A stretch of 64,000 nt of DNA from Thuidium tamariscinum (Eukaryota; Streptophyta; Bryopsida; Hypnales; Thuidiaceae): assembly GCA_947034885.2 (NCBI GenBank), contig OX344750.2, positions 35,884,821 through 35,948,820 on the forward strand. Direction: 5' to 3'. The position numbers and the translations under genes are program-made. This document shows positions 18,842-63,910 of the stretch, one piece after another. The notes below the pieces were generated by a model. The model searched no databases. It was not told the DNA's origin and saw only the letters and a list, made by a program, of their open reading frames with translations. Position 1 is the first letter of the stretch; every line of letters starts with the position of its first letter.

Positions 18842-18950
18842 TTAACAAACATAATTTATGTTGCACAATGGCCCTCAATTTCATATGCAAGCTTGCATTT
18901 AAGATTTTTCAAATGAAAAAGAGACTTCATGTAAAAAAAGCAAAAAGAAC

Positions 18951-25153: not shown

Positions 25154-28100
25154 TCAGGTATGACAAGTGTTTTTGTATGTATTATAGTCACATCTAGAGT
25201 GAAGTGGAGAACTTAGCCAAGTGTTGGGTGGAACAAGTTTAGGATTATTCCCATTGTTAGTCAAATAAAGTTGAGAATTTCGCCAATCGGGTGTCCAAAG
25301 TCTATATAGCTGATCGTTTTTGAAATCCTCTACAAGGACATAAGCTCCTCCAATGCTTGCACCAATCATAAGGAGGACACCAAGTACAATACAGCCCTGC
25401 AGGACCATCAATTAACAAAATTAATTCCAATTAGTAATCTAGAATTGTCCATAACATTCTTCAGCAATTTGGAGGAGTCACCTCATGGTAGCAACATCCT
25501 TAACTAAGACTTACAGGCAATTGAGCATGGTTATTGTTAATAAACCATAAAATTTTAATTCAATCACATTATTTGAACATCACATGAAAAGTTATGAATA
25601 TTCAAAGTATGGAATCATGGGGTCTCAGGCTCTTGTTCTAAGGTGACTATTAGGCTTGCTAAAAAGTGTTATGTTAAAATGAAAGTATTCAAGAATATAA
25701 GTCCAAAATCAATGAAATCCACACTTTCTTGTTGAACTTGATTCAACAAAATCAATTGAATAAAATTCAATCATAATTGCAAGACCTACAATTAGCATAC
25801 CAATCCTGACCAGCTAAATTTTCTCTAATAAGAAATCATTTATGGTTATAAATTTGTCTCGTCATTACATTGGAAATGCCCTTCAATCCTTATCCAAAAC
25901 TTTGCTTTATCTATATGTACCATACTGATTCAAAATTAAAATAACAAAAAAAAACTAGAAAATGAAACAGATCAACATATGTATGTTTGTATTTGTATGT
26001 AACAAATTAAAAAATTTTAGCATTTTTGATTTAACTTATTTCAGAACAAATTAAATATTGTTCTAGCACTTCTTATGAGTCTTCCTACAATATTCCAGTT
26101 TCATCCCACTTGTTAATGAAGGTATTTAATATGATAAAGTTCATCTGCTTACAAACCTATATAGGGCTGTAGTGGTGGAACTTGCTTCTTAGTCACTCCT
26201 ACTGTTTTCAAAAGAAATATTGCAAAAAATATATTTAAGAAAAAAAATATGTGTGCAAGCTGATGAACATACCCAATTGAAACACCAATCTCTTGACCAT
26301 GGCTTTGGTTTTTTTATCCTCAACCATATGATACAAGGCAGCTGCATTGGCAAACAAAATTTGAAATTATATCAGTGTTTAATAAACATGATCAGACAGG
26401 TAAATGAATGCACAAAAGTTATGAATGCCACATGAATGCAATCATGTATCATTTCTAAAGACAAGGAAGCCAAAATGTTGATTGATACTAATAAATCAAA
26501 GAAAGTGTCACAAGACATTGTTCCAGATAGGTAATTGAACTCACAAAGTAAGTTGTTGGAGCAATAGCAAATCCTCCAAATAAACCAAGCAGGGGAGAAA
26601 AGTAGGGGAAAATCATGGCAAGAATCATTGTAAGAACTGCAACCCACAGACAGAACTGGAGCTCAGGAATGACTAATTGTCAATGCTAATTAATAATTAA
26701 ACCCTCAGTCTGATACTAACTTTGGCCATGCCACAGAGCTCTCAATTGCTAGCATGCTTTTCATGAATTTTTTACAAAGAAAATTTTAGCACATACTAGT
26801 TCTGCAGCCCCCACCCCACCCCACCAAAAAATAAAGACCAGAGCTCAAGAATGTTGGGCTGAAAGGAACAACTATGTAAGTTATTTTACCTATGTAGATA
26901 GGTCGGATGAGGTATGGAATACTTCTCTTGATAAGTGGAAAATTTCCCTTGAACATCGGTTCAATCAAGGTTCTGAACCAAACTTCTAAAAGATTGAATA
27001 CTGGCATTCCAAAGATCTGCAAACAACAATATCGGTGTAATGGCATACTTGTTTCAATAAAAAAACCATATCAAAAGTTACAATGAGAATATTTATTTGC
27101 ATCAAACTCATTATGAACACTAATTCTCTCTTGTAAGTTGGATTTATTTTCCCTACTAATTGTTTTTTCAAATCACAAGCTCTAAAAGTACTTAACTGGA
27201 AACTGTGGATGCAACATCAACCATTTAGAGTTTGTCCAGGGTAAGTTGAAAGGTCAAATACAGGCTTGTACAACTGAGTCCTTTGAAAGATGAGTTACAT
27301 GAATTGAAACTATCTAACAGCCTTTGATTTGTTTTGTCTTAAAACATTTTGTATATGTCACATTCTGAGGATATTTGAGGAACAATCTTCAACAGTAGAG
27401 AATATAACCCAATGTGCATATTATTTCCATCCTCTGAAATATTATCTTTTTATTGCATGTGTTGACCCAAAAAAATACAAATTGAGTGCTCCCTGACTCT
27501 AAGCTTGTTGGTAATGAGAAAGACCATGTCCAGGCATTCGATCAGATGTGGTTAATTAATTATCAAGACTCGTGTTCCAAAATGATCAGAAAATGTGTTT
27601 TTGTAAACCAAGTAATTATGAAAACTTCCAAAGTTGAAGTGTCCTGCAACTAGTACCTGATAGGCGCCAATGAGGTGAATGATGAGCATGATGTTGGCTG
27701 CTGTAACCAACTCTTTCGGGGCTTTTGTCTGGTATTGAAGGAAACTCAATGCATTTTGGCTTATTTGATTACCATAAACTGTATAAAAGGCAATCCCCAT
27801 GGGCAGGTAGCAGAGTGCAACAAAGGCATAAGTAATCCTTATGGCAGGCTTCATCTCGTCCCTGGAGCTTCTGGTAGGAGTAGACCGTATCCCATTTTGA
27901 ATCTCCAGAACCACGTTATGAGCCGCATATGCAAAGGCGACAACACCAATGGCATTAAAAGCTCTGAATACTTGATCTGTATGACTCAATATTAGATGAT
28001 CCGACGAATTTGATATTGAATTTGACATTAGCACACAGTGATCCACTAGTAGATGCCCTGGAAAAGTGTAATTAACAGGAGTGAGTAAACCACTCATGGA

Positions 28101-29731
28101 ATGCCATTGTTCTTTGGGGCCACCAACAGAAACAACTGTAATCCAGGCAATTGTACAATAGCTGCGAACATGCACACCCAAACAGAAAGAAGGATCCATG
28201 AGCATAGTTAACAACGTTGGTCACAAATCACAACTACGTTAACAGCCTGTGTCTCAGGCACGATCAATCTACAAGTAATGGCCATGCCCTTGCAATGAAC
28301 TGACAGCCCTCACAGCCCTTCAGGATCTACTGAGTATCCAACACAGACTGATGGTGAATTTCAATAAAATGGTGATATTCCATATGCCATTTTTCAGACT
28401 GCGTGTTTTAAACTGAAAGTTAACATCTGAGAGAGAAATAGATTTTTAGACATCTAGGAAATGTGTAGATTTCCAAAATCTATGATGTATTTAAATTTCA
28501 GATCAGGCACTCTGAAACATCTTGGACAAGTAAAAATTTCAGATATTTATGACTCATATAGATTTCAAAAATCCATGACTGGTTTGGATTTTAAACCACT
28601 CGATCTGAGTTATAAAAGTGTCAAATTAATGGAGTTTCACCATTTTAACGAAATTCACCATCTGGACTTTAATGGTCAGATTATACGTTGTCAAAAAATT
28701 AAAAAATTACTTTAAATACAGAAATTGACAATTTAATTATTTTGTGGGTCAAAATTGATCTGTGAGTGTGCTGCAATTATGTGTTCTAGCGTATCAAAAA
28801 TACTTCTACAGTTATACTGCTACTTCAGCAAAAAGGTGGAATAAGTGAAAGCTTACCAGATTGACATAATTGCCGCAATCCCAACAATCCAATTTATAGA
28901 TTCGAAAGTCGGCCCCCGAAGAGAGAGGAGTATTTGAATGGCAGCAAAGACTGCAAACCAAACAAATATGTGATCTGGACGGTGAGGGTTGCATGATCCT
29001 GCGAAGCTGTCGTATATACGACTAAAAGCCTCTCCAGCGGCAACTGTGTACAGTATGTCCAGTGATATTTCGACAACCATTTGCAGTGGCACAATGATCC
29101 AGAAGCCAGCTCTCTCTCCAAATGCTCTTTGCCCAAGTTTGTAGTAGGTAACATATCGCATCTTCTTGTTCCCCACAAACTCAAATTCATGGAGCATGGA
29201 TAACTGCTGCAGTGTGAAGTAGGTGATGAAAAACGCCAGGAGGAGAATCACCACTCCCAGACGCCTGCACAATTTGACAAGCAGAAACAGACAAGCTGGT
29301 GATCTCGAAGAACCTGCAATGTTCAACTCAAGTGGAATACACCAACTACCACTTCTGCATCACTGGATGAGGTCATCTCTACATATGACTAAACATTGAA
29401 TAAGTCCGATCTACTTGAATTTCAAGGGTCCGAACCATGTGAGGAACATCATAGCTTGTGGAAGCCCAAGCACTCCCACCCCGACAATGGCTGTGATGCT
29501 GTAAGCAGAGGCTATCCACATGTTGGAAGTTCTCTCAACGTCGTCGTCGTCAACGTGGCCACGAAGGGGATTCGTCGATTCCGGGTCAACCTCGCCATTA
29601 CTATACCCCTGCAACGAGTACAGTACAGGCAGCATCTCTCGGGTAAGAGGAACATTTCTCATTTTCATAAAAAAACTTGCATAATTTAACTCGGTCCAGA
29701 AATTATCACTGGTGTACATGCTAGGCTGCAT
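25154..29731 (-). CDS. AAAP-family (LHT-like) amino-acid transporter, copy 1
   Basis: Predicted multi-pass proton-coupled amino-acid permease, probably of the plasma membrane. Seven exons on the minus strand: 29,731-29,415; 29,264-28,857; 28,161-27,657; 27,016-26,890; 26,636-26,545; 26,341-26,273; 25,396-25,154. All junctions are GT-AG and keep frame, giving 586 residues from the first ATG, or 563 from the ATG at 29,662 that matches the only usable start of copy 2. Family hallmarks: VGVGVLGLPQAM in TM1, YYKLGQRAFGERAG, FAYAAHNVVLEIQ, RSTPTRSSRDEM, GGFAIAPTTYF and LPCIIWL. It is longer than usual LHTs (about 440): an acidic N-terminus, a long loop in exon 3 and a roughly 50-residue hydrophilic C-terminus. 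Substrate cannot be inferred. Confidence 0.85.
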
Positions 29732-29764
29732 TAATTCCAGCTGTGAGAAGACAAAACAACACGT

Positions 29765-30275
29765 ATATTTAACAACAAGCGGCCCAACACTGGCGCTGAA
29801 TTGAACTCCTCATTTCCCAATTTGCAAATTGCACAAACTTTCATCATCTACGAGAATCATATCGGTTCAAATGCCGACAGAAGAATACATTGGTGTCTCC
29901 AGGTGTGGAAGACCTCGATGCCTTCGCCACTTCCATATCCCCCCGCTATTGCTTTTACTTCTGCGACACAAGCAGCATAGATCTTTCAGGTAAGAGGAAG
30001 TTGATCAAGTGCTTCTCATTTTAAGGTAAGCTTGCATAAAAACACTACGTTACTCCACAAGTCACTTGCATGCCAGTTTGCGTTACATGACGAGATTCAA
30101 TAACACAAGGTCCGCGATACTACAGCCAGCGGCCCAACATTTGAACATTTGGTGCTAAAATTCTCACATCACAATTTGCAAACTGTTCAAACTTCTCTCA
30201 TCTACTGAAATCGGTTTGCCGACACTCCCGACAGAAGCATACATTGACGTCTGCAGGGCTGTGTGGAAGACGAAA
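29765..30275. repeat. Imperfect tandem duplication upstream of transporter copy 1
   Basis: Two related segments about 350 bp apart (29,770-29,905 and 30,120-30,260) share AGCGGCCCAACA, CAATTTGCAAA and the CGACAGAAG-ATACATTG block. The same pair lies upstream of copy 2 (about 49,150-49,290 and 49,500-49,650), so it predates the gene duplication and could be promoter sequence. Confidence 0.65.
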
Positions 30276-30523
30276 TATCAAAAGATTGGTAGTACTGATT
30301 TAGCGATAGTACTGATCTTGCAGCCGCTCAATAATTCACCACTAAGACACTGACGGAAATATGGCAAATCAGCTGGCTAGCCTCACAGTACTTAACACCT
30401 AGTTCCTCTGACTCAAGATGTTACCTGCTGTGCGGAACTCCCGTGAAAATATCTGTACGCTTCTAGATCGATAGGCCCCTAGGGTTACTTGGTTGAGGCG
30501 CCTAACTTGGTTGAGTCAGATTG

Positions 30524-32422
30524 TCTTCCTTCACCCCTGGGGTCTGGGGTCGCTCGACTGTATTATTTAGTACTATATGTGATGAATTTTAACATATTTA
30601 CTTTATGCCCGTAACAAGTTTAGACGGAATTGAAGTCCTGGGCGCTGGACGTTTGTGATTCAGTCGGGGTGGCACTGGATATTTATGTGTGCAATACCCT
30701 TCTCCAGCCTCCCGGCTTTGGACTATCATTTAAGTTAGTTGGCATCGGCTGTTTTGTCTCTGGTTCCTTTCAATGCCGTGGGCTCGCCTGATTTGTTTCC
30801 AGGAAAAAAAGGGAAAAATAAAAGTCAGTCGGCATCGCAATTGCAACTACAATGTTGTAAGTTATTCAATAAAGTAAGAGAACATCATGTGCCACCCCCC
30901 CAAAATCCTTCTTTTAGTCTGTGTCGCCATTTCTCCACTACAATAATGCAAGCAGTTACTGAAGTAGGAGATCATCAAATGCCACCCCGAAATCCTTCTT
31001 TTAGATCGAATTTATTCGCCAGGGTAAGTGCTGGAGAATCAAACTGTACCTCTCCCCCACTTTATTATAACCAGTGGTCCCTTCGGTATTCAACGCTGAC
31101 CAGCATTTTCGGGAATCTCATGCACCAAAGACTCCCAAGTGGTTCCTTCTTTTAATGTTATGGTTCGTTCCCTTCGTTAAAGAAAAGAAGACTCACTTGT
31201 CTGTGTGCAGACAATTTCGAAAGTTAACCCATACTGTACTGTGAAGTCAATGTGCAGACAATTGTATGATTAATTGAATAGTCGACACGTCGAATACCAT
31301 ATTAGAGCAAGGCAGAGTACAGACATTTTCGTCCCGTAGCACACTGTAGTCCAGGAGCACTGAGCACAGTACCCACTGCAACCGGGATTCGGCGACTCCG
31401 AGGGCCGAGGCTCCTCAATAACTTACCAGTTCACCGATTATCCTGTTTACCCTCAGTCGGCCTGAAAACGCGGCGCTCTCAGACTAATTCTGGAATTGGA
31501 TGGCAGTCTGTCGGACTGATTGAGATTATTCTAATTCAAAATAATTAGACCGCTTAGGTAAACTGGTAATCGGTGAACTGGTATTGAGGAGCTATGCAGT
31601 GGGAGCTATGCTCGTGGTTGCTAGCCTACTACAGCATCCGCACTACGGGACGGAAATGTCTGTAGCTATCATATGGTAAATTATTGCTATAATATGGTAA
31701 TCGACGTGTCGACTATTCGTATGATTGTCTGCACATTGACTATTTGACTTCCTATTTTAGTACCTTAAAATGGGTTAACTTTCAGAATTGTCTGTACAGT
31801 GCACACCACAAGTTGGGAGTTGTTGGTGCATGAGATTCCCGAAAATGCTGGTCAGCGTTGAAGACGGAAGGGACCACTGGTTATAATAAAGTGGGGGAGA
31901 GGTACAGTTTGATTCTCCACCGGCGAATGAATTCGATCTAAAAGAAAGATTTCGGGGTGGCATTTGATGATCTCCTACTTCCTGCTTGCATTATTGAAGT
32001 GGAGAAATGGCGACCCAGACTAAAAGAAGTAATTTGGGGGGTGCGGCACATGATGTTCTCTTACTTTATTGAATAACTTACATCATTGTAGTTGCAATTG
32101 CGATGCCGACTGACTTTGTTTTTTTGTTTTTTTTCCCTGGAAACAAATCAGGTGAGCCCACGGCATCAAAAGGAACCAGAGACAGAACAGCCGATGCCGA
32201 CTAACTTAGACGACAGTCCAACGCCGAGAGGCTGGAGAAGGGTACTGCACACACAAATATCCAGTGCCACTCCGATTGAATCACAAACGTCCAGCGCCCA
32301 GGACTTCCGTCTAACTTGTTAGCACGGGCATAAAGTAAATGTGTTAAATATTCATCACATGAAGTACTAATAATTTAATATACTCGACCGATCCCAGACC
32401 GAGGGGCGAAGGATTCTGAAAA
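30524..32422. mobile_element. Foldback-type long palindrome, unit 1
   Basis: Two arms of roughly 900 bp are reverse complements of each other with mismatches and gaps, centred near 31,505. Outer pair: ACCCCTGGGGTCTGGG at 30,534-30,549 with CCCAGACCGAGGGGCG at about 32,394-32,408. Middle pair: the GCATCGGCTGTTTTGTCTCT block at 30,743-30,762 with its complement near 32,185-32,200. Inner pair: 31,410-31,455 with 31,555-31,600. Open frames in the arms mirror each other and are not genes. Unit 2 has the same element with its loop greatly expanded. Confidence 0.75.
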
Positions 32423-32617: not shown

Positions 32618-33149
32618 CAGTGAAGCGGTCCTTAGTTTAATTAGCAGTGGACTGTCTTTCTCTGTACGATGTAAGTAACATTCTTCAGGAAACGATAGAA
32701 GGGGACCAGCCTTGCGATTGCACTCCCCACCGGCCCAACTCTAGGGTTTTCTCGCCATCCCGGTGAAAATACCTCAGACACACTGAGGCCGATGCTTGTG
32801 CAGGTGTACTTTAGACAGGTGCTTAGAGTCGTTGTGAAGCGGAAGTATGCACAGCGCTGGATGGTTTTGAAGCCTGTTGGAGGTTGACGGTGTTTGCAAT
32901 GTCCCCGTTCAACACCCTCCGTGTAAGGTTCGATTTATTCTTCAAAATTTCTCTCGAGCCAATTTTGACAAATTTTAGACATCCTCGCATCGCCTTCGTC
33001 GGGTGTCCGCATCTCATTTTCAATTATGTGTAGGCGTCAAGGTGGTAGATTTAGATCTTTGTAAGTGCATGATGCAAGCTATTATAAGGCGAGTTCGTCC
33101 TCGTATGATATTCCATGGATAGAATCATACGTTGTGGGCCGCATTAAAC

Positions 33150-36100
33150 ATGGTGAACCCTCGTGACTACCTCGTCAAGGCACAAGCTCTCGCTGCAAAG
33201 CTGCCATCTGAACCAGGTTCGATCAAACTTCACCGAAGGCAATGTTCCTGCTTGCAACAGAAATTAAGAAAGACACTGGATCTTTTTGTGAGAAGGGGAG
33301 CATCTGATGACAGAGTACTGGAACGATATGAGAAGGTGTTTGAAGAATTCCTTCACTTGGTACAAAAAGTGAAAACCTTTGTAGACGACTGTTGTTACGA
33401 GGATGAAAACGATTTTGTCTTGGCAGCCATCAGAGTGATCGCTCACAGGGGAAGATTTTTCCAGTACCATGTAGAGCTGGACTGGTGTAGCTTCTTGGTG
33501 AAGTGCCTTCGGGAGGCCGATAATTTACCCCGCAGGCCAGTGTACTGCCAAACGCTTCAAAAATTTGACTGGGAGCAGAAGTTCAAAAGCCTTTTTCTTA
33601 ATAGTAGAGAGACTTCAAATATGATAGCGGCTGATGAAGAGGAGTTGAAGGCTCTCTTAGTGTCTTGGATTGCGAAACCAGGTGAACATCAAACAATTTG
33701 CTGGGTTCTCCTGCGCCGTTTTGGATCAAAGACAGATTCTGACCTTCATACCCTGCCAGGTCCAGGTAACCTTGGATTTCCACCTATTCCCACCACACTT
33801 GGAAAGTTTATAGGTTCAGGTTCATATGGACATGTTCACGAAATCAAGTGGAAGGAGAAGCTATTTGCTGTCAAATATTTCCGGATTGAAAGTGCGGATC
33901 CAACTATTAACAACGAAGTTAAAATACTGGAACGTTGTTGCCATCCACATATTGTGAATTTGATTCTAGCACACAAAGAAGATACAACGCAGTATCTTAT
34001 GATGGAGCGACTGTCTTGCGACTTGGAATCCTACATAAACGAAAGGAAGAAGCGACGAGCTTTTCCTTTCCCTACTTCGGAAGTTGTGGATATGATCTCG
34101 CAGATTTGTGAGGGCATGCTCTACTTGAATGATACTGAAAGGAAGGTGTCGCACAGAGATCTGAAACCGAGGAATATACTCGTCAAGGAGCTGAAGCCAG
34201 TAACAGACGCGGAGATTCCAGCCATAGAATTGCAAGTGGCTGACTTTGGAATGGCGAAGGAGCGTAAGGAAAAGGGACCGGGAAGGTCCTCTCACTCCTC
34301 TGTTTCCGACAACACTCCAAATTGTGGAACCTTACTGTATAGAGCACCAGAGATGACGGCGAAGAGGGGAGGCGGTAAAGTCCGGCGGTCATCAATGAAG
34401 GCAGATATGTACTCCTTCGCTGTAACTTGCAGTTTCATCTTGACTGGCACGGCGCCTTTCAAACGCTACACAAACACAGAGCATTTGAAACAAGCAATCA
34501 AAGATGGCGAAAGGCCTCATTTGCCTGACAATTATCCGCCGGCGTTGGTTACCCTTCTCGAACGGTGCTGGAATTCAGATCCCACTAAACGACCTGAAAG
34601 TTTTTACGAAATTCTTACAGAGCTGAGAAAACTGAAGGCCAATCTTCTCACAAGTGAGTGCGTTGAGAACTCTAAGTTCTTGGTCTTGAGTAGTCTTTGG
34701 CAAATCCAACGGCTTTGCACTGGATCACCAACTTTGAAGTTACTAAGTTTGAAAAATCCTGACAGACATATGCATCTGGAATCAACTGTGACATGCTGGT
34801 GATCAATTAGGGCTACATTAAGTACACCATTCCTGGAGTCAAATCCTCTGTTGATATGCAGTCAATGCTTCAATTCAATAACTGCTGCCTAGTACTGACA
34901 AAAAATTGTGCTTGTTTAGGTGCTATTGAGGGAATAGAGCCACCAGAAGCAGAGACTCCAGTGGTCGGTGCTAGTGAACGAGTACAAGCTGTTGTGGTTC
35001 CAGATACAGAACCCCGCGAGGTCGGTGCAAATTCTTTGTTGTTGTCTTTTCAGGTCTACAAGTTGCTGTTTTGTCCAAGCGCATTGTTCAATTTCCAAAC
35101 ATTTGGATGAAACTGCAACATTAGTTAGGCTGTTGGGGATCTTAAGTTTCTTCAATCTATTCCAGCGGTCAGTCCTTACAGGTCTACAATTGGTCCACCT
35201 CTGAGGAACACTTGCGAGAGAGATGCTGGGAGTAATTAATTTGTTTCATGATGTTATCATGTGAATGGATCTTTTCATCACTTAGATGACATGTTTCGAC
35301 ATTGATCGATTACATTGTTGTTACATGTTGGTTATGGAGTGATAGGTGATTGCCAGTGATGTCCTTCAGTATGGACCTACGGTATATGACAGACTCTGCA
35401 CTCACGTTTGTACTTTGTACTAGACTGAGGAAATTATAGGATGTCCTGACAATTTTACGCTACATTTCATACTGCTCTTCTTTCCGTTCATTGCATGCTT
35501 GACATAGTAAAATTATAGTATATACATACCGTTGTTGGCGAAGAGGTTAACCTGAGTTATCGTATTCCTTTTAGTAGCTCATTAGTATTTGCTAGAACTT
35601 AACCCGGGCTTAACCTTTAAATATTGTCTGTTGTCTTGCCAGCCTGAACCAATTGTAACGTTCTATCCCGGGGATCGAAGATTGAATATCCTTGTTCTGG
35701 GGGACCCGGAATCGGTGGAAGCTGTCATCGGTCATATATGTGGTGCTCGTAGGCGGCAGACTCTGGTCGAAGATCATGTGAACTTGACAGAAAGCAGGAA
35801 TTCTTCGCCGCCCATGTGCTTGTACGGCGTTAAAAAACCAAAAGAAGGGATCAACAGAAACGATTACTCAGATATCAGAACCTTTGTGAAAGTCAGGAAC
35901 GAAAAGTGGCATCGAACAAAGGTGGAGGCCTTGTGGGAGAGTGAAGTACCCGAGTGCTCTGGGCCCAGAAATTGGTCTGAAATGTTCCCAGACAGTACTT
36001 CGAGGTTGCACATGGTGTGGTTTGTGTGCAGGAAACTCTCAGACTTCCCAAATCTTCTCAAATGGCCTGAGATCACCGAGAAGTTGTGTGATCTTCCAGT

Positions 36101-36932
36101 GCGAATTTTGGTGATCGAAAAGCAGAGCCTGGCTCAAGATTCGGACTTGCACGTTCAACAGGAGTTTGACAATATACTTAAGCACAGAAGCGTTTTTTTC
36201 CCGAAAGTTCAGGAGTTCAGGGAGGAGTTGATTGTTAAAGTTGATCTTCGAGATGATGACCTAAAGGAAGAGCTCTGGCGCAATTGTTGGGCTGTTAAAA
36301 CACGAGTTGAAATTGGAAATGTTGCGAAAATCATCAGGGAGATACGTAAACGACTTGGACCAGCAGGAATATCCGTCCAGTCGGGTGTTGGTGGAGCGAG
36401 GATGCGAAAGGAAGTTTCATTGTCGCGGAGCGGGGAATTTGTCCTTCATTTGTTGTGCGCGTATTGGGATATTCCACAAGATTCTCTCCGTCGGGTTCTC
36501 CGAAGACTTAGCTGTCGAACAACCTTCATATCACAGGCACGTGGCATGATTGAAATCAGCATCAAACCTCGTGAATTTGTTGGGTTTTGTTTGATTGTTG
36601 CTGCGATCATTCTGTACAACGCCCGAGACAACGCCAGGACTCCAAAATATGTTTGCAGGTGGAACGTTGGTTCTGCATTAAGCTTAGACCAATTGCAGAC
36701 GGAAGCTCAAGAATGCTACAATTCTTATCTTGCTGGTTCAACCAGTGAGTCCAGTCCCTATTATGATACAATGGTATTCGAAGACATTCGACTGTTCCTT
36801 GAGAGTATATTTGAGAGAAAGGATTGGAATCCACGTTCTGTAGGAAGTGCTGTTAGAGACTCGTTCATTTCAAAGATTATGAAACGAATTTGTCCTCGCG
36901 GAAAATCTGTCAGTCCTGGCATGTCACCTTAA
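33150..36932 (+). CDS. Kinase/pseudo-GTPase fusion protein, copy 1
   Basis: Three exons joined in frame: 33,150-34,653 (donor A|GTGAGT), 34,920-35,020 (acceptor TTTAG, donor GAG|GTCGGT) and 35,643-36,932, giving 964 residues. Residues 1-200: helical region with an LDWC motif, resembling the plant DUF1221 kinase N-terminus. Kinase about 215-497: GSGSYGHV 222, Lys242 (AVK), HRDLK 335 with Asp337, DFG Asp365, APE 399; all catalytic residues are present. Exon 2 is an acidic/proline linker. Residues 536-964 look like a degenerate G domain: LNILVLG (549-555) then DPES instead of a GKS/T P-loop, a W-F-C strand (RLHMVWFVC), PVRILVIEKQSL where TKxD is expected, and a hydrophobic helix near 847-861. 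An alternative donor at 35,053 is also in frame (+11 residues). Without splicing, exon 1 reads to TGA at 34,800. Function unproven; signalling is likely. Confidence 0.75.
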
Positions 36933-38112: not shown

Positions 38113-38744
38113 AACCCTTAAATGTTCAAGGCCTTTTTTGAGCTTCTAGGAATTTGCTCTAAAGTGAACAAAAAGTCAACTTTATGATGAGCTTTTCAAG
38201 TTTTTGAAATGTAACTGTACTAACTCAAACTAGATATGTTGGAGATTATGCAAGAAAAGAAAAAACAACAATATCACTTATGGATTGAAAGATTATAATA
38301 TTTGATCATGCGGGAGTTAAAATTGCGAAAGTGATGTGAAGTCTTTCAATCCTCTTTTCTCAAGTCAAATCTAAAAAGTTTGTGACCAAAAAAATATGAG
38401 GTGAAAGGGCCTAACATGCATAATCCCAATCTATTTATGGATTCTCAAAATCTACTCTACAATTTTTTTAAATGAATTTCTATTGTGATTTTTTTCCCAA
38501 GATCTAGTGTATTTGAGTCAGCTCATTTCTAAGAGCCCTCAACACTAGAGAAAGTCAAGATTGCAATGGGTATCCTTTTACAAAATCTTGAATAGAAAAA
38601 TTGTTTTTCAAGATTAGGTTTTTAATACTTAAAGTAAACTTCGAAAAGAATTCTCCAAAAATACTAACTACAAAAAATAGCAACTTCATTAGGTTTTATT
38701 TAATTTCACAGACATCAGATTTTGATGCCTTGGACATTTAGGGG
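38113..38744. mobile_element. piggyBac-like TTAA element, copy 5
   Basis: The interior aligns with the 18,183 element (AAAATATGAGGTGAAAGGGCC, AAGATCTAGTGTATTTGAG). The right end is CATTTAGGGG + TTAA (38,745-38,748). The left end is mutated (TTGAAACCCTTAAATG), so its start is approximate. Confidence 0.6.
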
Positions 38745-38748
38745 TTAA

Positions 38749-42650: not shown

Positions 42651-42727
42651 AAAATGGCTCAGTTTATGACCTTCACATAAGTACAGTAATACACACCAGG
42701 CTCAAATCATAAATGAACATCCATTAA

Positions 42728-43363
42728 CCCCTAAATGCCCAAGGCACCCAAAAGTGGTGTCAAAAAAACTTTGAAGTTAAATAAAACCTTAGCTAATTTC
42801 TATTTTTAGTAATTTCTATTTTTGGAAGATTCTTTTTGAAGTCTAGTTTTAGCATCAATAATCTGATTTTGAAAATGAATGATTATGATTTTTCTATTCA
42901 ATATTTAGTGCAAGGGTACCCGTTGCAATCTTGACATTCCGTAGTGTTAAGGATTTTTGGAAATGAGCCTCAAATACACTAGATCCTAGAGAAAAAATCA
43001 CACTAAAAATTTATTTAAAAAAATTGTAGAATAGATTTTGAGAAGCCATAAATTGATTGGGGTTATCCTTGTTAGGCCCTTCAACCTCATATTTTTTTGG
43101 TGATCAACTTTTTAGATTTGACATGCAAAAAGAGAGCTCAAAGATTTTCATAGTTTTTACACTTGCATGATCAAACATTATAATCTTTCAATCCGTAAGT
43201 AGTATTGTTGTATTTTTTATTCCTATGTCATCTCTAACATGTCTACTTTAAATTTGTACGGTTACAATTCAAGAAAATTGATTCAACTTATCAAAATGTT
43301 GAATTTTAGTTCAATTTAGAACAAATTCTAAGAAGCTCAAAATAAGCTTGGGGCATTTAGGGG
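42728..43363. mobile_element. piggyBac-like TTAA element, copy 6 (empty site known)
   Basis: Termini CCCCTAAATGCCCAAGGC and the inverted GGGGCATTTAGGGG, flanked by TTAA at 42,724-42,727 and 43,364-43,367. Unit 1 at about 24,886-24,897 has one TTAA in the matching flanks (CATCCTTAAGTCAAAC). That is the exact TTAA signature of piggyBac-type insertion. No transposase. Confidence 0.75.
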
Positions 43364-43622: not shown

Positions 43623-46600
43623 TCAGGTATGACAAGTGTCTTTGTATGTATTATAGTCACATCTAGAGTGAAGTGGAGAACTTCGCCAAGTGTTGGGTGG
43701 AACAAGTTTAGAATTATTCCCATTGTTAGTCAAATAAAGTTCAGAATTTGGCCAATCCGGTGTCAAAAGTTTATACAATTTATTGTTCATGAACTCCTCC
43801 ACAAGGACATAAGCTCCTCCAATGCTTGCAACAATCATAAGGAGGACACCGAGTACAATACAGCCCTGCAAGACCATCAATTAACAAAATTAATTCCAAT
43901 TAGTAATCTAGCATTTTCTGTAACATTCTTCAGCAATTTGGAGGACTCACCTCAAGGTAGCAACATCTTTAACTATCACATGAAAAGTTATGAATATTCA
44001 AAGTATGGAATCATGGGGCTCGGCCTCATTATTCTGAACTGACTATTAGGTTTGCTAAAAAGAATTGTGTTAAAATCGATGAAATCCACACTTTCTTGTT
44101 GAACTTGATTCAACAAAATTAATTGTGTAAAATTAAATCACAATTGCAAAACCTACAATTAGCATACAAATCCTGACCAGCTAAATTTTCTCTGATAAGA
44201 TATCATTTACGGTTATAAATTTGTCTTGTCATTACATCGGAAATGCCCTTCAATCCTTATCCAATTGCTTTACCCATACCTACCATACTGATTCAAAATT
44301 AAAATAACAAAAGAAACAGAAAATGAAATAAACAGATCAACATATGTATGTGTGTATTTGTATGTAACAATTTAAAAAATTATGCATTTTTTTATTCAAC
44401 TTATTTCAGAACAAATTAAATATTGTTCCAGCACTTCTTATGAGTCTTCCTACAATATTCCTGTTTCATCCCATTTCCCTGTTAATGAAGGTATTTACTA
44501 CGGTAAAGTTCATCTGCTTACAAACCTAAGGTGGGTACACCCAAAAGCGTCACTTATTCATACTGAGCCTAGTTCCTGCTATTAATGAGTTCAAATTTTT
44601 ATGTAGTCTTGTTGGAAAGTGAAAGCATGTTTCAATGCACCAAAGAACGTAGGATTTGGATACTGTATGCAAAAATTATTAACAGTCAAAGTCTGTTTCT
44701 GAAAGCGCCATCTACAGTCTGTGAACATGACTGATTTCGAAAATGTATGTGCACTATAGATGGTGCTTTTAGGAACAGGGTGCTTTTGGGTGTACCTACC
44801 TTATATAGATCTTTAGTGGTGGCACTTGCTTCTTAGTCACATCCACAGTCTTTAAAGAAATATTAAAAGAAATATTAAAAAAATAAAATGTGTGTGCAAG
44901 CTGATGAACATACCCAATTGAAACACCAATCTCTTGACCATCTGTCTGGTTTTTTAATCTTCAACCATATGATACAAGGCAGCTGCATTGGCAAACAGAA
45001 TTTGAAATTATATCAGTGTTAAAAAAACATGATCAAACAGGCAAATAAATGCAAAAAAGTTATGAATGCCACATGAATGCAATTATCATGTATCATTCTG
45101 AAAACAAGAAAGCCAAAATATTGATTGATACAAAATTACAAACTGAAAGGAAGTATCAGTGGGAAGGTGTTTTTAACCCCTAAATGCCCAAGGCACTAAA
45201 ATCTGGTGTTTGCAAAACTTTGAAGTCTAACAAAACTTAAGCAAGTTGCTATTTTTGTAATTTAATATTTTTGAAAAGTTCTTTGAGAAGTCTAGTTTTA
45301 GCATCAAAAATCTAATCTTGAAAATAATCAATAGTGATTTTTCTATTGAAGATTTTATGCAAGGCTACCCATTGCAATCTTGACTTCCTATAGTGTTGAG
45401 AGCTCTTGGAAATGAGCCTCAAATACATTAGATCTTGGATCAAAAATCACATTCAAAATTCATTTTTAAAAACTATAGTGTAGATTTTAAGAAGCCATAA
45501 GTTGATTGGGGTTAAACATGTTAAGCTCTTTAACCTTATATTTTTTTGGTCACCATTTTTTTAGATTCGACTTGTGAAAAGAGGGTTGAAAGTTTTTTGC
45601 AATTTTAACACTATCATGGTCAAACATTATAATCTTTAACTCTATAAGTGATATTGTTGTGTTTTCTTTTCCTATGAGATCTCTAACATGTCTAGTTTGA
45701 ATTGATATGGTTACAATTCTTTTTTTAAATTGATACAACTTATCAAAATGTTGGCATTTTGTTCAATCTAGAGCAAATTCAAAGTCACTCAAAATAGGCC
45801 TTGTGCATTTAGGGGTTAACAAGTAGGTCATTGGACTCACAAAGTAGGTGGTGGGGGCGATAGCGAAGCCCCCCAAGAAGCCCAGCAGGGGAGAAAAATA
45901 CGGGAAAATCATGGCGAGAACCGTTGTAAGAACTGCAACCCACAGACGACTGGAGCTCAGGGACGACTAATTGACAATGCTAATTAATAATTAAAACCTC
46001 AGGTTGGAACTAACTTTGGCCATGCCACAAACAGAGCTCTCAATTGCTAGCATGCTTTTCATGAATTTTTTACAAAGAAAATTTTAGCACATACTAGTTC
46101 TGTAGCCCCCCCAAAAGACCAGAGCTCAAGAATGTTAGGTTGAAAGGAACAAATATGTAAGTTATTTTACCTATGTAGAGAGGTCGGATGAAGTATGGAA
46201 TACTTCTCTTGATAAGTGGAAAACTTCCCTTGAACATCGGTTCAATCAAGGTTTTGTACCATTTCTCTAATAGATTGAATACTGGCATTCCAAAGATCTG
46301 CAAACAATATAGGTGTAAGGGCATGTTACTTGTTTCAATAAAAAAAACTATATCAAAAGTTACACTGAGAATATTTATTAGCATCAAACTCATTATGAAC
46401 ACTGATTCTCTCTTGTAAGTTGGATTTATTTTCCCTATCAATTGTTTTTGCAAATCAAAAGCTTTAAAAGTAACTGGAAACTGTGGATGCAACATCAACT
46501 ATTTAGAGTTTGTCCAGGGTAAGTTGAAAGGTCAAATACAGGCTTGTACAACTGAGCCCTTTGAAAGATGAGTTACAAGAATTGAAACTATCTAACAACC

Positions 46601-49035
46601 TTTGATTTGTTTGTTTTAAAACATTTTGTATATGTCACATTCTGAGGATATTTGAGGAACAATCTTCAACAGTAGAGAATATAACACAATGTGCATATTA
46701 TTCACATTCCCTGAAATATGGTCTTTTTATTGCATGTGTTGACCCAAAAAATACAAATTAAGTGCTCTTTGACTCCAAGCTTGTTGGTAATGAGAAAGAC
46801 CATGTCCAGGCATTCGATCAAATGTGGCTAATTAATTATCAAAACTTGTGTTCCAAAATGATAAGAAAATGTGTTCTTGTAAACCAAGTAATTATGAAAA
46901 CTTCCAAAGTTGAAGTGCCATGCAACTGGTACCTGATAGGCTCCAATGAGGTGAATGATGAGCATGATGTTGGCTGCTCTAACCAATTCTTTTGAGGCTT
47001 TTGTCTGGTATTGAAGGAAACTCAATGCATTTTGGCTTATTTGATTACCATAAACTGTATAAAAAGCAATCCCCATGGGCAGGTAGCAGAGTGCAACAAA
47101 CACATAAGTAATCCTTAGGGCAGGCTTCATCTCGTCCCTGGAGGTTCTGGTAGGAGTTGACGGTAACCCGTTTTGAACCTCCAGAAGCACGTTATGAGCC
47201 GCATATGCAAAGGCGACAATGCCAATTGCATTAAAAGCTCTGAATACCTGATCTGCATGATTCAACTTTAGATGATTCGACGAATTTGATGTGGAATTTG
47301 ACACACAGTGATCCACTAGTAGATGCCCTGGAAAAGTGTAATTAACATGAGTGTGTAAACCACTCCCGGGTTGTTCTTCAGGGCCACCAACATCTTCAGG
47401 GCCACCAACAGAAACAACCGTAATCCAGGCAATTGTACAATAGCTGCGAGCATGCACACCCAAACAGAAAGAAGGATCCATGAGCATAATTAACAACGTG
47501 GGTCACAAATCACAAGTTCTACGTTAACAGCTTATGTTACAAGCACGATCAATCTACAGGTAATGCCCATGCCCTTGCAATGAACTGACAGCCCTCACAG
47601 CCCTTCAGGATCTACTGAGTATCCAACAGACTGTGGACACTGGATGGTGAATTTCAATAAAATGGTGATATTCCATATGCCATTTTTCAGACCACGTGTT
47701 TTAAACTGAAAGTTAACATCTGAGAGAGAAATAAACTTTTAGACATCTAGGAAATGTGTAGATTTCCAAAATTTATGATGTATTTAAATTTCAGATCACG
47801 CAGTCTGAAACATCTTGGACAAGTATAGATTTCAGACATTTATGACTCATATAGATTTCAAAAATCCATGACTGGTTTAGATTTCAGACCACTCAATCCG
47901 AATTATAAAAAGTGTCAAATTAATGGAGTTTCACCATTTTAACGAAATTCACCATCTGGACTTTAATGGTCAGATTATATGTTGTCGAAAAATTACTTTA
48001 AATACAGAAATTGACAATTTAATAATTTTATGGGTCAAAATTGATCTATGAGTGTGCTGCAATTATGTGTTCTAGCGTATCGAAAAATACTTCTACAGTT
48101 ATACTGCTACTTCAGTAAAAGGTGGAATTAGTTTTCTGATCTGGTTCTCCTTCTTATGCAATGGGGCCTCGCTCATTTGTTCAAAAAAAGAAAAAGAAAA
48201 GAAAGGTGAAATTAGTGAAAGCTTACCAGATTGACATAATTGCCGCAATCACGACAATCCAATTTATAGATTCGAAAGTTGGCCCCCGAAGAGAGAGGAG
48301 TATTTGAATGGCAGCAAAGACTGCAAACCAAGCAAATATGTGAACTGGACGGTGAGGGTTGCATGATCCCGCGAAGCTGTCAAATACACGGTTCATAGCC
48401 TCTCCAGCGGCAACCGTGTATAAGATGGCCATAGAGACCTCGACAACCATTTGGAGAGGCAAAATGATCCAGAAGCCAGCTCTCTCTCCAAATGCTCTTT
48501 GCCCGAGTTTATAGTAGGTAACATATCGCATCTTCTTGTTCTCTACAAACTCAAATTCATGGAGCATGGATAACTGCTGCAGTGTGAAGTAGGTGATCAC
48601 CAATGCTAGGAGGAGAATAACCACTCCTAGATGCCTGCACAATTTGACAAGCAGAAACAGACAAGCTGATGATCTCGAAGAACCTGCAATGTTCAACTCA
48701 AGTGGAATACACCAACTACCACTTCTGCATCACTGGATATTAAGGTCATCTCTAGATATGATTAAACATTGAATAAGTCCGATCTACTTGAATTTCAAGG
48801 GTTCGAACCATGTGAGGAACACCATAGCTTGTGGAAGCCCAAGCACTCCCACCCCGACAATGGCTGTGATGTTGTATGCAGAGGCTATCCACATGTTGGA
48901 AGTTCTCTCAACGTCGTCGTCGTCAACGTGGCCACGGAGGGGATTCGTCGATTCCGGATCAACCTCGCCATTACTGTACCCCTGCAACGAGTACAGCACA
49001 GGCAGCATCTCTCGGGTAAGAGGAACACTTCTCAT
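43623..49035 (-). CDS. AAAP-family (LHT-like) amino-acid transporter, copy 2
   Basis: Same gene as the 25,154-29,731 copy. Exons: 49,035-48,788; 48,634-48,227; 47,443-46,933; 46,297-46,171; 45,932-45,841; 44,982-44,914; 43,865-43,623, giving 565 residues with every junction in frame. The upstream ATG used by copy 1 is followed here by an in-frame TAG, so translation must begin at or after the ATG at 49,035 (MRSVPLTREMLPV). Exon 3 is two codons longer than in copy 1, with an internal GPEDVGGPEE repeat. Exon 5 is unusually GC-rich and differs from copy 1 at many synonymous sites. Introns carry extra elements: a TA MITE in intron 6, a TTAA element in intron 5 and a small retroposon in intron 2. 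Likely functional as read. Confidence 0.85.
44529..44801. mobile_element. 273 bp stowaway-like MITE (empty site known)
   Basis: TIRs AGGTGGGTACACCCAAAAGC and its near complement, flanked by TA at 44,527-44,528 and 44,802-44,803. The matching site in unit 1 (ACCTATATAG, about 26,156-26,165) has a single TA. Related to the element at 2,718-2,995. It lies in intron 6 of transporter copy 2. Confidence 0.8.
45177..45815. mobile_element. piggyBac-like TTAA element, copy 7
   Basis: Termini CCCCTAAATGCCCAAGGC and TGCATTTAGGGG, flanked by TTAA at 45,173-45,176 and 45,816-45,819. It lies in intron 5 of transporter copy 2, 25 bp from exon 5. Unit 1 lacks it, but the flanks there do not give a clean empty site. 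Confidence 0.7.
48132..48201 (+). mobile_element. 70 bp retroposon end with 14 bp target duplication
   Basis: An insertion ending in an A-rich tail (AAAAAAAGAAAAAGAAAAG) flanked by AAAGGTGGAATTAG (48,118-48,131) and AAAGGTGAAATTAG (48,202-48,215). Unit 1 lacks the insert. The text before the tail (ATGCAATGGGGCC...TTTGTTC) resembles the LINE 3' end at 18,951-19,358, so this is probably a severely 5'-truncated LINE. In intron 2 of transporter copy 2. Confidence 0.75.
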
Positions 49036-49099
49036 TTTAATAAAAAACTTGCATAATCTAACTCCAGATATTATCACTTGTGTTCATGCTAGTCTGCAT

Positions 49100-49900
49100 T
49101 AATTCCAGCTGTGAGAAGACAAAACAACACGGACTGGGTATATATTTAACAGCCAGCGGCCCAACACTGGCGCTGAATTGAACTCCTCATTTCCCAATTT
49201 GCAAATTGTACAAACTTCCATCATCTACGAGAATCATATCGGTTCAAAAGATCTAGAATTAAATACATTGGTGTCTCCAGGTGTGGAAGACCTCGATGCC
49301 ATCGCCACTTCCATATCACCACGCTGTTGCTTTTACTTCTGCGACACAAGCAGCATAGATCTTTCAGGTAAGAGGAAGTTGATTAAGTGCTTCTCATTTT
49401 AAGGTAATCTTGCATAATGAATTTAAACACTACGTTACTCCACAAGTCACTTGCATGCCAGTTTGCAATACATGACGAGATTCAATAACACAAGGTCCGC
49501 GATACTACAGCCAGCGGCCCAACATTTGGACATTTAGTGCTAAAATTCTCATTTCACAATTTGCAAACTGTTCAAACTTCTCTCATCCACTGAAGTCGGT
49601 TTGCCGACACTCCCGACAGAAGCATACACTGACATCTGCAGGCTGTGTGGAAGACGAAACATCAAAAGATTGGTAGTACTGATTTAGCGATAGTACTGAT
49701 CTTGCAGCCGCTCCACACTTCACCACCACGACACTGATGGAAATATGGCAAATCAGCTGGCTAGCCTCACAGTACTTAACACCTAGTTCCTCTGACTCAA
49801 GATGTTACCTGCTGTGGGAAACTCCCGTGAAAATGTCTGTACGCTTCTAGATCGATAGGCCCTTAAAGGTTACTTGGTTGAAGCGCTTGACTTGGTTGAT
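49100..49900. other. Upstream region of transporter copy 2
   Basis: Aligns with 29,740-30,520 of unit 1, including the internal imperfect tandem duplication. Transcription signals for the minus-strand transporter should lie here; no specific motif can be supported. Confidence 0.5.
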
Positions 49901-49904
49901 TCAG

Positions 49905-50705
49905 ATTGTCTTCCTTTGCCCCTGGGGTCTGGGGTCGCTCGACTGTATTATTTAGTACTTTGTGTGATGAATTCAACACATTTACTTTAATATTTCCGTA
50001 ACAAGTTAGACGGAAGTCCAGTCGTTGGAAGTTTGTGATTCAATCTGAGTGGCACTGGATATTTGTGTGTGCAATACCCTTCTCCAGCCTCCCGGCGTTG
50101 GACTGTCGTCTAAGTTAGTCCGCATGCTTCTTTTTAATGCAATGACATTTGACAGTTCAAAAAGAGGAAGTCAGTCGGCAATTGCAACTACAATGATGTA
50201 AGTTATTTAATAAAGTAAGAGAACATCATATGCCACCACCCCAAAATTCTTCTTTTAGTTCTGCGTTGCGACTACAATAATGCAAGCGGTTATTAAAGTA
50301 GGAGATCATCAAATGCCACCCCCCGCCCCCCGAAATCTTTCTTTTAGAATTTATTCGCTGGGGCAAGTGCTGGAGAATTGACCAAACTGTACCTCTCCCC
50401 CACTTTATTATAACCAGTGGTCCCATACGTTTTCAACACTGACCAGCATTTTTGGGAATCTCATGCACCAGAGACTCCTAAGTAGTTCCTTCTTTTAATG
50501 CTATGGTTCATTCTCTTTGTTAAAGAAAAAAAGACTCAATTGTCTACAGGTGTGTAGACAGTTTCGAAAGTTAACCCATACTGTACCGTGAAGTCAATGT
50601 GCAGACAATTGTATGATTGAATAGTCGACATGTCGAATACTATATGATAGCAAGGCAGAGTACAGACATTTTCGTCCCGTAGCACACGGTAGTCCAAGAG
50701 CACTG
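49905..50705. mobile_element. Foldback palindrome, unit 2, left arm
   Basis: Matches 30,524-31,366 with scattered indels. Similarity to unit 1 stops at about 50,708 (GAGCATAGGG against GAGCACAGTA). The partner arm lies 7 kb away at 57,640-58,740. Confidence 0.7.
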
Positions 50706-50709
50706 AGCA

Positions 50710-60184: not shown

Positions 60185-63100
60185 ATGGTGAACCCTCGTG
60201 ACTACCTCGTCAAGGCACAAGCTCTCGCTGCAAAGCTGCCATCTGAACCAGGTTCGATCAAACTTCACCGAAGGCAATGTTCCTGCTTGCAACAGAAATT
60301 AAGAAAGACACTGGATCTTTTTGTGAGAAGGGGAGCATCTGATGACAGAGTACTGGAACGATATGAGAAGGTGTTTGAAGAATTCCTTCACTTGGTACAA
60401 AAAGTGAAAACCTTTGTAGACGACTGTTGTTACGAGGATGAAAACGATTTTGTCTTGGCAGCCATCAGAGTGATCGCTCACAGGGGAAGATTTTTCCAGT
60501 ACCATGTAGAGCTGGACTGGTGTAGCTTCTTGGTGAAGTGCCTTCGGGAGGCCGATAATTTACCCCGCAGGCCAGTGTACTGCCAAACGCTTCAAAAATT
60601 TGACTGGGAGCAGAAGTTCAAAAGCCTTTTTCTTAATAGTAGAGAGACTTCAAATATGATAGCGGCTGATGAAGAGGAGTTGAAGGCTCTCTTAGTGTCT
60701 TGGATTGCGAAACCAGGTGAACATCAAACAATTTGCTGGGTTCTCCTGCGCCGTTTTGGATCAAAGACAGATTCTGACCTTCATACCCTGCCAGGTCCAG
60801 GTAACCTTGGATTTCCACCTATTCCCACTACACTTGGAAAGTTTATAGGTTCAGGTTCATATGGACATGTTCACGAAATCAAGTGGAAGGAGAAGCTATT
60901 TGCTGTCAAATATTTCCGGATTGAAAGTGCGGATCAAACTATTAACAACGAAGTTAAAATACTGGAACGTTGTTGCCATCCACATATTGTGAATTTGATT
61001 CTAGCACACAAAGAAGATACAACGCAGTATCTTATGATGGAGCGACTGTCTTGCGACTTGGAATCCTACATAAACGAAAGGAAAAAGCGACGAGCATTTC
61101 CTTTCCCTACTTCGGAAGCTGTGGATATGATCTCGCAGATTTGTGAGGGCATGCTCTACTTGAATGATACTGAAAGGAAGGTGTCGCACAGAGATCTGAA
61201 ACCGAGAAATATACTCGTCAAGGAGCTGAAGCCAGTAACAGACGCGGAGATTCCAGCCATAGAATTGCAAGTGGCTGACTTTGGAATGGCGAAGGAGCGT
61301 AAGGAAAAGGGACCGGGAAGGTCCTCTGTTTCCGACAACACTCCAAATTGTGGAACCTTATTGTATAGAGCACCAGAGATGACGGCGAAGGGTGGAGGCG
61401 GTAAAGTCCGGGGGTCATCAATGAAGGCAGATATGTACTCCTTCGCTGTAACTTGCAGTTTCATCTTGACTGGCACGGCGCCTTTCAAACGCTACACAAA
61501 CACAGAGCATTTGAAACAAGCAATCAAAGATGGCGAAAGGCCTCATTTGCCTGACAATTATCCGCCGGCGTTGGTTACCCTTCTCGAACGGTGCTGGAAT
61601 TCAGATCCCACTAAACGACCTGAAAGTTTTTACGAAATTCTTACAGAGCTGAGAAAACTGAAGGCCAATCTTCTCACAAGTGAGTGCGTTGAGAACTCTA
61701 AGTTCTTGGTCTTGAGTAGTCTTTGGCAAACCCAACGGCTTTGCACTGGATCACCAACTTTGAAGTTACTAAGTTTGAAGAATTCTTTTAGATATATGCA
61801 TCTGAAATCAACTATGACATTCTGGTGATCAATTAGGGTTACGTTAAGTACACCATTCCTGGAGTCAAATCCTCTGTTGATATGTAGTCAATGCTTCAAT
61901 TCAATAACTGCTGCCTAGTACTGACAAAAAATTGTGCTTGTGTAGGTGCTATTGAAGGAATAGAGCCACCGGAAGCAGAAACTCCTGGACCAGAGGTCGG
62001 TGCAAATTCTTTGTTGTTGTCTTTTCAGGTCTACAAGTTACTGTTTCATCCAAGCGCATTGTTCAATTTCCGAACATTTGGATGAAACTGCAACATTAGT
62101 TAGGCTGTTGGGGATCTTAAGTTTCTTCAATCTATCCCAGCGGTCAGTCCTTACAGGTCTACAATTGGTCCACGTCCAAGGAACACTTGCAAGAGAGATG
62201 CTCGGAGTAATTAATTTGTTTCATGATGTAATCATGTGAATGGATCATTTCATCACTTAGATGACATGTTTCGACATTGATCGATTACATTGTTGTTACA
62301 TGTTGGTTATGGAGTGATAGGTGATTGCCAGTGATGTCCTTCAGTATGGACCTACGGTATATCACAGACTCTGCACTCACGTTTGTACTTTGTTCTAGAC
62401 TGAGAAAGTTATAGGATGTCTTGACGATATTACGCTACATTTCATATTGCTCTTCTTTCCGTTCATTGAATGCTTGACATAGTAAAATTATAGTATATAC
62501 ATACCGTTGTTGGCCAAGAGGTTAACCTGAGTTATCGTATTCCTTTCAGTAGCTCATTAGTATTTGCTAGAAATTAACCCGGTCTAAACCTTTAAATATT
62601 GTCTGTTGTCTTGCCAGCCTGAACCATTTGTAACGTTCAATCCCGGGGATCGAAGATTGAATATCCTTGTTCTGGGGGACCCGGAATCGGTGGAAGCTGT
62701 CATGGGTCATATTTGTGGTGCTCGTAGGCGGCAGACTCTGGTCGAAGATCATGTGAACTTGACAGAAAGCAGGAATTCTTCGCCGCCCATGTGCTTGTAC
62801 GGCGTTAAAAAACCAAAAGAAGGGATCAACAGAAACGATTACTCAGATATCAGAACCTTTGTGAAAGTCAGGAACGAAAAGTGGCATCGAACAAAGGTGG
62901 AGGCCTTGTGGGAGAGTGAAGTACCCGAGTGCTCTGGGCCCAGAAATTGGTCTGCATTGTTCCCAGACAGTACTTCGAGGTTGCACATGGTGTGGTTTGC
63001 ATGCAGGAAACTCTCAGACCTCCCAAATCTTCTCAAATGGCCTGAGATCACCGAGAAGTTGTGTGATCTTCCAGTACGAATATTGGTGATCGAAAAGCAG

Positions 63101-63910
63101 AGCCTGGCTCAAGATTCGGACTTGCACGTTCAACAGGAGTTTGACAATATACTTGAGCACAGAAGCGTTTTTTTCCCGAAAGTTCAGGAGTTCATGGAGG
63201 AGTTGGTTGTTAAAGTTGATCTTCGAGATGATGACCTAAAGGAAGAGCTCTGGCGTAATTGTTGGGCTGTTAAAACAAGAGTTGAAATTGGAAATGTTGC
63301 GAAAATCATCAGGGAGATACGTAAACGACTTGGGCCAGCAGGAATATCCGTCCAGTCGGGTGTTGGTGGAGCGAGGATGCGCAAGGAAGTTTCATTATCG
63401 CGGAGCGGGGAATTTGTCCTTCATTTTTTATGCGCGTATTGGGATATTCCACAAGATTCTCTCCGTCGGGTTCTCCGAAGACTTAGCGGTCGTCGAACAA
63501 CCTTCATATCACAGGCACGTGGCATAATTAAAATCAGCATCAAACCTCGTGAATTTGTTGGGTTTTGTTTGATTGTTGCTGCGATCATTCTGTACAACGC
63601 CCGAGACAACGCCAGGACTCCAAAATATGTTTGCAGGTGGAACGTTGGTTCTGCATTAAGCTTAGACCAATTGCAGACGGAAGCTCAAGAATGCTACAAT
63701 TCTTATCTTGCTGGTTCAACCAGTGAGTCCAGTCCCTATTATGATACAATGGTATTCGAAGACATTCGACTGTTCCTTGAGAGTATATTTGAGAGAAAGG
63801 ATTGGAATCCACGTTCTGTAGGAAGTGCTGTTAGAGACTCGTTCATTTCGAAGATTATGAAACGAATTTGTCCTCGCGGAAAATCTGTCAGTCCTGGCAT
63901 GTCACCTTAA
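60185..63910 (+). CDS. Kinase/pseudo-GTPase fusion protein, copy 2
   Basis: Exons 60,185-61,679, 61,946-61,995 and 62,618-63,910, in frame, giving 945 residues. The domains are as in copy 1: helical N-terminus with LDWC, kinase with GSGSYGHV, AVK, HRDLK, DFG and APE all intact, short linker, then the G-domain-like C-terminus with DPES in place of a P-loop. Differences: a three-residue deletion (Ser-His-Ser) between DFG and APE, a linker exon shorter by 17 codons, one extra Arg in the C-terminal domain and a scatter of substitutions. An alternative in-frame donor for exon 2 exists at 62,028, as in copy 1. Exon 1 read through its donor would end at TGA 61,826. Intact; same uncertainty on function. 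Confidence 0.75.

Follow-up and report, generated by a model that had tools for sequence, protein, structure and literature searches.

A 64,000-nucleotide (nt) stretch of the genome of the moss Thuidium tamariscinum (contig OX344750.2, positions 35,884,821 to 35,948,820; hereafter the window) carries one gene in two copies, both on the plus strand (33150-36932, copy 1; 60185-63910, copy 2). With the introns proposed in Table 1 removed, the three exons of each copy join into an uninterrupted reading frame, of 964 codons in copy 1 and 945 in copy 2, and the sequence looks to encode a genuine fusion protein in which a helical N-terminal region is followed by a kinase domain, a linker, and a C-terminal domain. 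The original prediction, made from the letters of the window without database searches, had proposed the coordinates, the four splice sites, and the 964-residue frame of copy 1, together with the existence of a second copy. All of these were reproduced, and copy 2 uses four junctions identical to those of copy 1.

Table 1. Exons and introns of the two gene copies (positions within the window)
Feature	Position	Strand	Description
Exon 1, copy 1	33150..34653	+	Putative helical N-terminal region (residues 1 to ~210) and Ser/Thr-type kinase (~215-497); ends in phase 1
Intron 1, copy 1	34654..34919	+	GTGAGT (after 34653)...TTTAG (before 34920); splice scores 4.53 (donor) and 4.48 (acceptor); copies differ by 14 substitutions over 266 nt
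Exon 2, copy 1	34920..35020	+	Pro/Glu-rich linker, 101 nt; placed on frame and splice score, not on conservation
Intron 2, copy 1	35021..35642	+	GTCGGT (after 35020)...TTGCCAG (before 35643), phase 0; splice scores 1.53 (donor) and 2.19 (acceptor); copies differ by 26 substitutions over 622 nt
Exon 3, copy 1	35643..36932	+	C-terminal domain, residues 536-964; hydrophobic stretch at residues 840-860; stop codon 36930-36932
Exon 1, copy 2	60185..61679	+	Protein 98.6% identical to copy 1; donor GTGAGT as in copy 1
Exon 2, copy 2	61946..61995	+	Linker shortened to 50 nt
Exon 3, copy 2	62618..63910	+	Protein 96.5% identical to copy 1; acceptor as in copy 1

All chains of GT-AG introns linking the reading frames of exons 1 and 3 were enumerated, with donors at 34560-34802 and a second exon of 15-400 nt, and were ranked by rough splice scores summed over sites (these derive from approximate plant frequencies, not from a trained model). 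Within these limits 15 one-intron and 3,816 two-intron chains are open in copy 1, contrary to the claim that the proposed phases are the only ones that fit; 6 and 797 of them, respectively, are still open in copy 2. The three-exon chain of Table 1 ranks first among the 3,816 two-intron chains (summed score 12.7) and is open in both copies, and the runner-up that is also open in copy 2 reaches 9.8. The top one-intron chain joins 34653 to 35596; its score of 7.0 is a two-site sum and cannot be set against a four-site one, and its frame is interrupted in copy 2. Among the one-intron chains that are open in both copies, the highest score is -2.9. The three-exon fusion frame is well supported by these comparisons as the best set of phases, though not the sole one.

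Retention of intron 1 would lead to a stop codon at 34800-34802 and to a kinase-only protein. It is unlikely, in our judgment, that the locus consists instead of two genes, one for a kinase with its stop at 34800-34802 and a second, downstream, in the frame of exon 3. Such an arrangement would account for an exon 1 frame that continues into intron 1 and meets its stop at matching positions in the two copies, and for the lack of conservation of exon 2; however, nine substitutions separate the copies in the last 47 nt of the extension (34754-34800), intron 1 is flanked by a good donor and a good acceptor, and exon 3 offers no in-frame methionine ahead of its LNILVLG strand. Because the first such methionine lies behind this strand in both copies (residues 58 and 29), a separate downstream gene lacking an upstream exon of its own is disfavored.

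The two copies of the kinase gene are 96.6% identical, and their first 210 codons do not differ at all. Identity extends over ~1 kb that includes the 5′ flank and these codons (32701-33793 versus 59736-60828), while the introns differ by 4-5%; recent gene conversion is therefore the simplest account of the 5′ part, and the comparison suggests that conversion has homogenized it. Agreement between the copies in this part is not independent evidence, because gene conversion is probable there. Outside it, divergence is unevenly distributed: the introns carry 40 substitutions in 888 positions, as against 10 in 851 aligned nt of exon 1 (counted from 33794; Fisher p 2e-5 versus introns) and 25 in 1290 of exon 3 (p 8e-4). 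Exon lengths differ between the copies by 9, 51, and 3 nt, all multiples of three, with the 51-nt difference in exon 2 falling as 15 and 36 nt in the alignment. For exon 1 the ratio of nonsynonymous to synonymous change (dN/dS) is 0.23, and for exon 3 it is 0.36. Outside the linker, where the alignment is uncertain, 18.5 of the 35 observed changes are nonsynonymous, against ~25-26 expected in a neutral simulation (P 0.004-0.017; exon 3 only, P 0.04); including the linker (44 changes, P 0-0.001) overstates the effect. Purifying selection on the gene is visible in these sequence comparisons despite the probable gene conversion.

Within intron 1 the substitutions are clustered, with 11 of the 14 falling in the 64 bases from 34754 to 34817 and a single one in the preceding 100 bases.

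That the copies are a decaying or recently duplicated non-functional pair, kept alike by gene conversion, appears very unlikely. The ~1 kb of identical 5′ sequence is in keeping with this explanation, as is the limitation of the comparison to two recent copies, but neither copy contains a frameshift or stop under the splice model, the length differences in the exons stay in frame, and both dN/dS and the contrast between exon and intron divergence speak for constraint. The original prediction had argued from the preservation of the design in both copies that the fusion is maintained. The shared junctions, open frames, and signature of purifying selection bear this argument out in part; its force is reduced by the high identity of the copies and by gene conversion.

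The identity of the kinase domain is certain: residues 218-483 match Pfam Pkinase at an E-value of 1.2e-42, and the glycine loop (GSGSYG), the AVK lysine, HRDLKPRN, DFG, and APE are all in place, in agreement with the earlier description of a complete Ser/Thr-type kinase. As every catalytic motif is intact, the kinase is likely to be active. Nine bacterial kinase models of NCBIfam also matched exon 1, every one below its cut-off. Among 1,521 PDB sequences matched at an E-value of 1e-5 or better, the first two places go to 6lba, with 109 bits, and 6ka4, with 84, which we take to be the Arabidopsis MLKL proteins AtMLKL3 and AtMLKL2, respectively. They are followed by 9p9u (an EGFR entry, 82 bits without a single stretch passing), roco4 (79 bits), and RIPK1 and TAK1 (~70 bits); this ranking covers the best 60 of the 1,521 matches, the 60th of which scores 62 bits. 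The accessible part of PMC10881975 identifies 6lba as an MLKL protein. The order of the matches points to a kinase of the TKL type that belongs near the plant MLKL group.

The region ahead of the kinase looks helical in the structure model of exon 1, a model of low confidence in which residues 1-200 form helices only (4-17, 29-50, 54-80, 87-100, and 110-123, with some shorter ones). A count of helical moments separates this region from the kinase weakly (0.77 versus 0.66 of windows). Sequence comparison of the N-terminus with the PDB gave no useful match, and a Pfam search of exon 1 up to an E-value of 1 found nothing outside the kinase and one noise match inside it. A stretch reading CCYED...FFQYHVELDWC presumably resembles DUF1221, the domain to which the original prediction had likened this region. 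Pfam did not recognize DUF1221, although the kinase points to the MLKL proteins of plants, in which that domain occurs. In plant MLKL proteins DUF1221 (PF06760) corresponds to the HeLo domain, according to the available part of PMC8559963, and a HeLo-like bundle may form the N-terminus of the moss protein as well.

The domain encoded by exon 3 has no significant match in Pfam, in NCBIfam, or among PDB sequences. Its sole Pfam match, to DUF4864, lies below the cut-off (E 0.059-0.099), and Dynamin_N, AIG1, IIGP, and MMR_HSR1 did not match it. As a control, the same Pfam library detects MMR_HSR1, Dynamin_N, AIG1, and IIGP in YfjP of Escherichia coli K-12, a true GTPase. A motif scan of the exon 3 protein of both copies found none of the P-loop (G-x4-GK-[S/T]), [N/T]KxD, or DxxG motifs, and the same three are absent across the whole copy 1 protein; the P-loop and TKxD are missing just as had been reported. 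Residues 840-860 are hydrophobic (best 19-residue hydropathy mean 1.67). Relatives were sought among viruses, prokaryotes, and plasmids, a scope that says little about novelty. Exon 3 gave no pattern match in viral contigs, seven in prokaryote genome contigs, none of which was confirmed, and none in plasmids (E up to 10); five pattern matches of exon 1 in viral contigs were likewise not confirmed.

Bacterial GTPases with a DUF697-like tail were compared with this domain in a profile built from 23 proteins (L003-L007 and L009-L026). The candidates came from six plasmid stretches with GTPases, picked among 50 listed records out of 69, and from 21 genome-contig loci, 18 of which entered the profile. 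Left out were L027-L029, whose matches were short or weak, and L001, L002, and L008. E. coli K-12 YfjP and a Gloeocapsa GTPase were tried as comparators, and neither had the wanted layout. The two copies scored -1.3 and -2.4 bits against the profile in hmmsearch. In the first half of the hhalign alignment, LNILVLGD falls on the P-loop strand, and RLHMVWF...VRILVIEK falls on the strands that carry H-x-x-W and TKxD. Counted without gaps from the NILVLG/NVLIAG strand, VEA occupies the place of GKS, and hhalign sets one gap there; DPES, which had been proposed to stand in place of GKS/T, lies three residues off. The pseudo-GTPase reading originally given for this region is plausible, the first strand and H-x-x-W...VRILVIEK being in register with the GTPase-DUF697 proteins, but the statistics (below) fail and Pfam recognizes no G domain. 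On this evidence the likeness of exon 3 to GTPase-DUF697 proteins is not significant, suggestive only, and the C-terminal domain is possibly a pseudo-GTPase, a worn-down G protein.

The reading that we favor, which we hold tentatively and at somewhat less than even confidence, is that of a single protein in which a helical N-terminus, an intact TKL-type kinase nearest to MLKL, and a Pro/Glu linker precede a domain that probably derives from a G protein, has lost its P-loop, and would act as a sensor or scaffold. Several results weigh against it. Residues 1-214 have no Pfam match up to an E-value of 10 in either copy (the PF06760 model itself was not seen in the library), and phmmer, run up to the same value, matches the N-terminus to neither 6lba nor 6ka4. 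The affinity of the kinase to MLKL is a matter of best-hit scores, not of a tree. Exon 2, with 5 substitutions in 50 aligned positions besides the 51-nt difference, is as divergent as an intron, which suits a linker and is no proof of an exon. Structure models, predicted from single sequences with no relatives, reach a mean per-residue confidence (pLDDT) of 37.1 for exon 3 and 35.8 for exon 1; they weigh neither for nor against any fold, because even the certain kinase failed. In the profile comparison by hmmsearch, which placed the two copies in a set of 204 sequences that included 200 shuffles, copy 2 came fifth and copy 1 sixteenth; fourth place, ahead of both, went to the reversed exon 3. 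The hhalign probability is 1%, and higher scores were obtained by 4 of 100 shuffles in default mode and by 1 of 40 E. coli chunks. These chunks were open frames of at least 230 residues, trimmed to a maximum of 429, that were taken from 50 kb of K-12 without reference to its annotation. In the other modes the score was equalled or exceeded by 1 of 60 shuffles (-mact 0) and by at least 8 of 60 (global). The hydrophobic tail of exon 3 is not paired with the DUF697 tail, contrary to what had been expected by eye; and since the GTPase-DUF697 family was itself chosen by reading the sequence by eye, the near-miss is to be discounted further.

In a rival reading the fusion is the same and the C-terminal domain does not derive from a G protein, being instead a lineage-specific domain that would serve as a binding platform for the kinase; we consider this a serious possibility, with about a third of our confidence. 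It would agree with the lack of a family model, of a significant PDB match, and of significance in the profile and fold comparisons. An alignment in which the first strand and the H-x-x-W block line up with those of GTPase-DUF697 proteins argues against it, as do the titles returned by Foldseek. The latter search, anecdotal in view of the poor exon 3 model (pLDDT 37) with which it was made, had a best E-value of 0.89, and 16 of the best 50 of its 161 matches bear titles naming Ras-superfamily or Gs proteins, all at E-values of at least 0.89.

If the protein is expressed and its C-terminal domain has a G-protein fold, as the favored reading supposes, a mechanism can be sketched. At rest, the C-terminal domain would, as scaffold or sensor, restrain the kinase and the N-terminal helices, or place the protein on a membrane or a partner. 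Binding or loss of a partner by this domain, for example a membrane or a pathogen-altered target, would then cause the protein to cluster; the kinase would phosphorylate a partner or itself; and the helices of the N-terminus would work on a membrane or relay the signal, in the manner of MLKL-type cell-death execution. A role in immunity or cell death would follow, and the relation of the kinase to MLKL adds some weight to an immune function. It is rather unlikely, though conceivable, that the protein represents a class of plant immune or cell-death proteins, MLKL-like executors with an active kinase under a pseudo-GTPase that replaces the NB-ARC switch of nucleotide-binding leucine-rich repeat (NLR) proteins, so that sensing would occur without nucleotide exchange. 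Were this true, the gene would offer a testable case of a signaling protein that has swapped its nucleotide switch for a dead one.

Elsewhere in the window, a duplicated segment (26528-31369 and 45824-50712, 88-90% identity) linked to each copy of the kinase gene contains, on the minus strand, a gene for an amino acid transporter (Pfam Aa_trans). The kinase copies (96.6%) are far more alike than the transporter segments, and the two therefore have different histories. A dispersed repeat of ~650 bp and ~80% identity, possibly a transposable element, is present in both orientations at 18199-18851, 38119-38748, 42724-43359, and 45168-45811.

Compared with known systems, exon 3 resembles the bacterial GTPases with a DUF697-like tail in that its first strand, its H-x-x-W strand, and the strand after the latter line up with theirs in one alignment; it differs from them in having no P-loop or TKxD, in its unaligned tail, and in a similarity that is not significant. 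The PK-NBS-LRR proteins of mosses (PNL, or Pkn-NLR) likewise combine a kinase at the N-terminus with a module at the C-terminus and have a phase 0 intron where the two meet, in the description available from PMC3352924. In the gene studied here, in contrast, the module has no P-loop and an additional phase 1 intron sets off the linker. Identity with PK-NBS-LRR was rejected, exon 3 having no Pfam match to NB-ARC or LRR in either copy, and the phase 0 intron common to the two may be due to chance. A plant kinase fused to a pseudo-GTPase was not found among the literature matches listed, a coverage outside which subscription papers mostly lie. A survey of algae and land plants counts MLKL among NLR-associated proteins, in the part of PMC11218826 available, and may already have inventoried relatives outside the seed plants.

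The closest parallel is with plant MLKL proteins (AtMLKL; 6lba and 6ka4), in which a region of ~200 residues likewise precedes a TKL-type kinase and which provide the top kinase match among solved structures. In the accessible text of the sources, these proteins form a family conserved across seed plants and acting in immunity (PMC9950082), and the AtMLKLs are pseudokinases with a DUF1221/HeLo N-terminus (PMC10951266; for the N-terminus also PMC8559963). Here, unlike in AtMLKL, all the kinase motifs are retained, Pfam does not recognize DUF1221, and the linker is followed by ~430 residues. MLKL membership was not assigned, Pfam having returned no DUF1221 match; the protein is at most MLKL-like in its working. 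The MLKL-type protein Pm13 of wheat, as presented in the available part of PMC10951266, combines a helical bundle with a kinase that retains all key catalytic residues. By this description, the only basis of the comparison, the moss protein is like Pm13 in its helical bundle and catalytically intact kinase, and unlike it in its C-terminal domain, to which nothing comparable is described for Pm13 in that part of the source. If the reading is correct, a relative of MLKL that keeps its kinase intact and has gained a large domain would exemplify another mode of control for such an executor.

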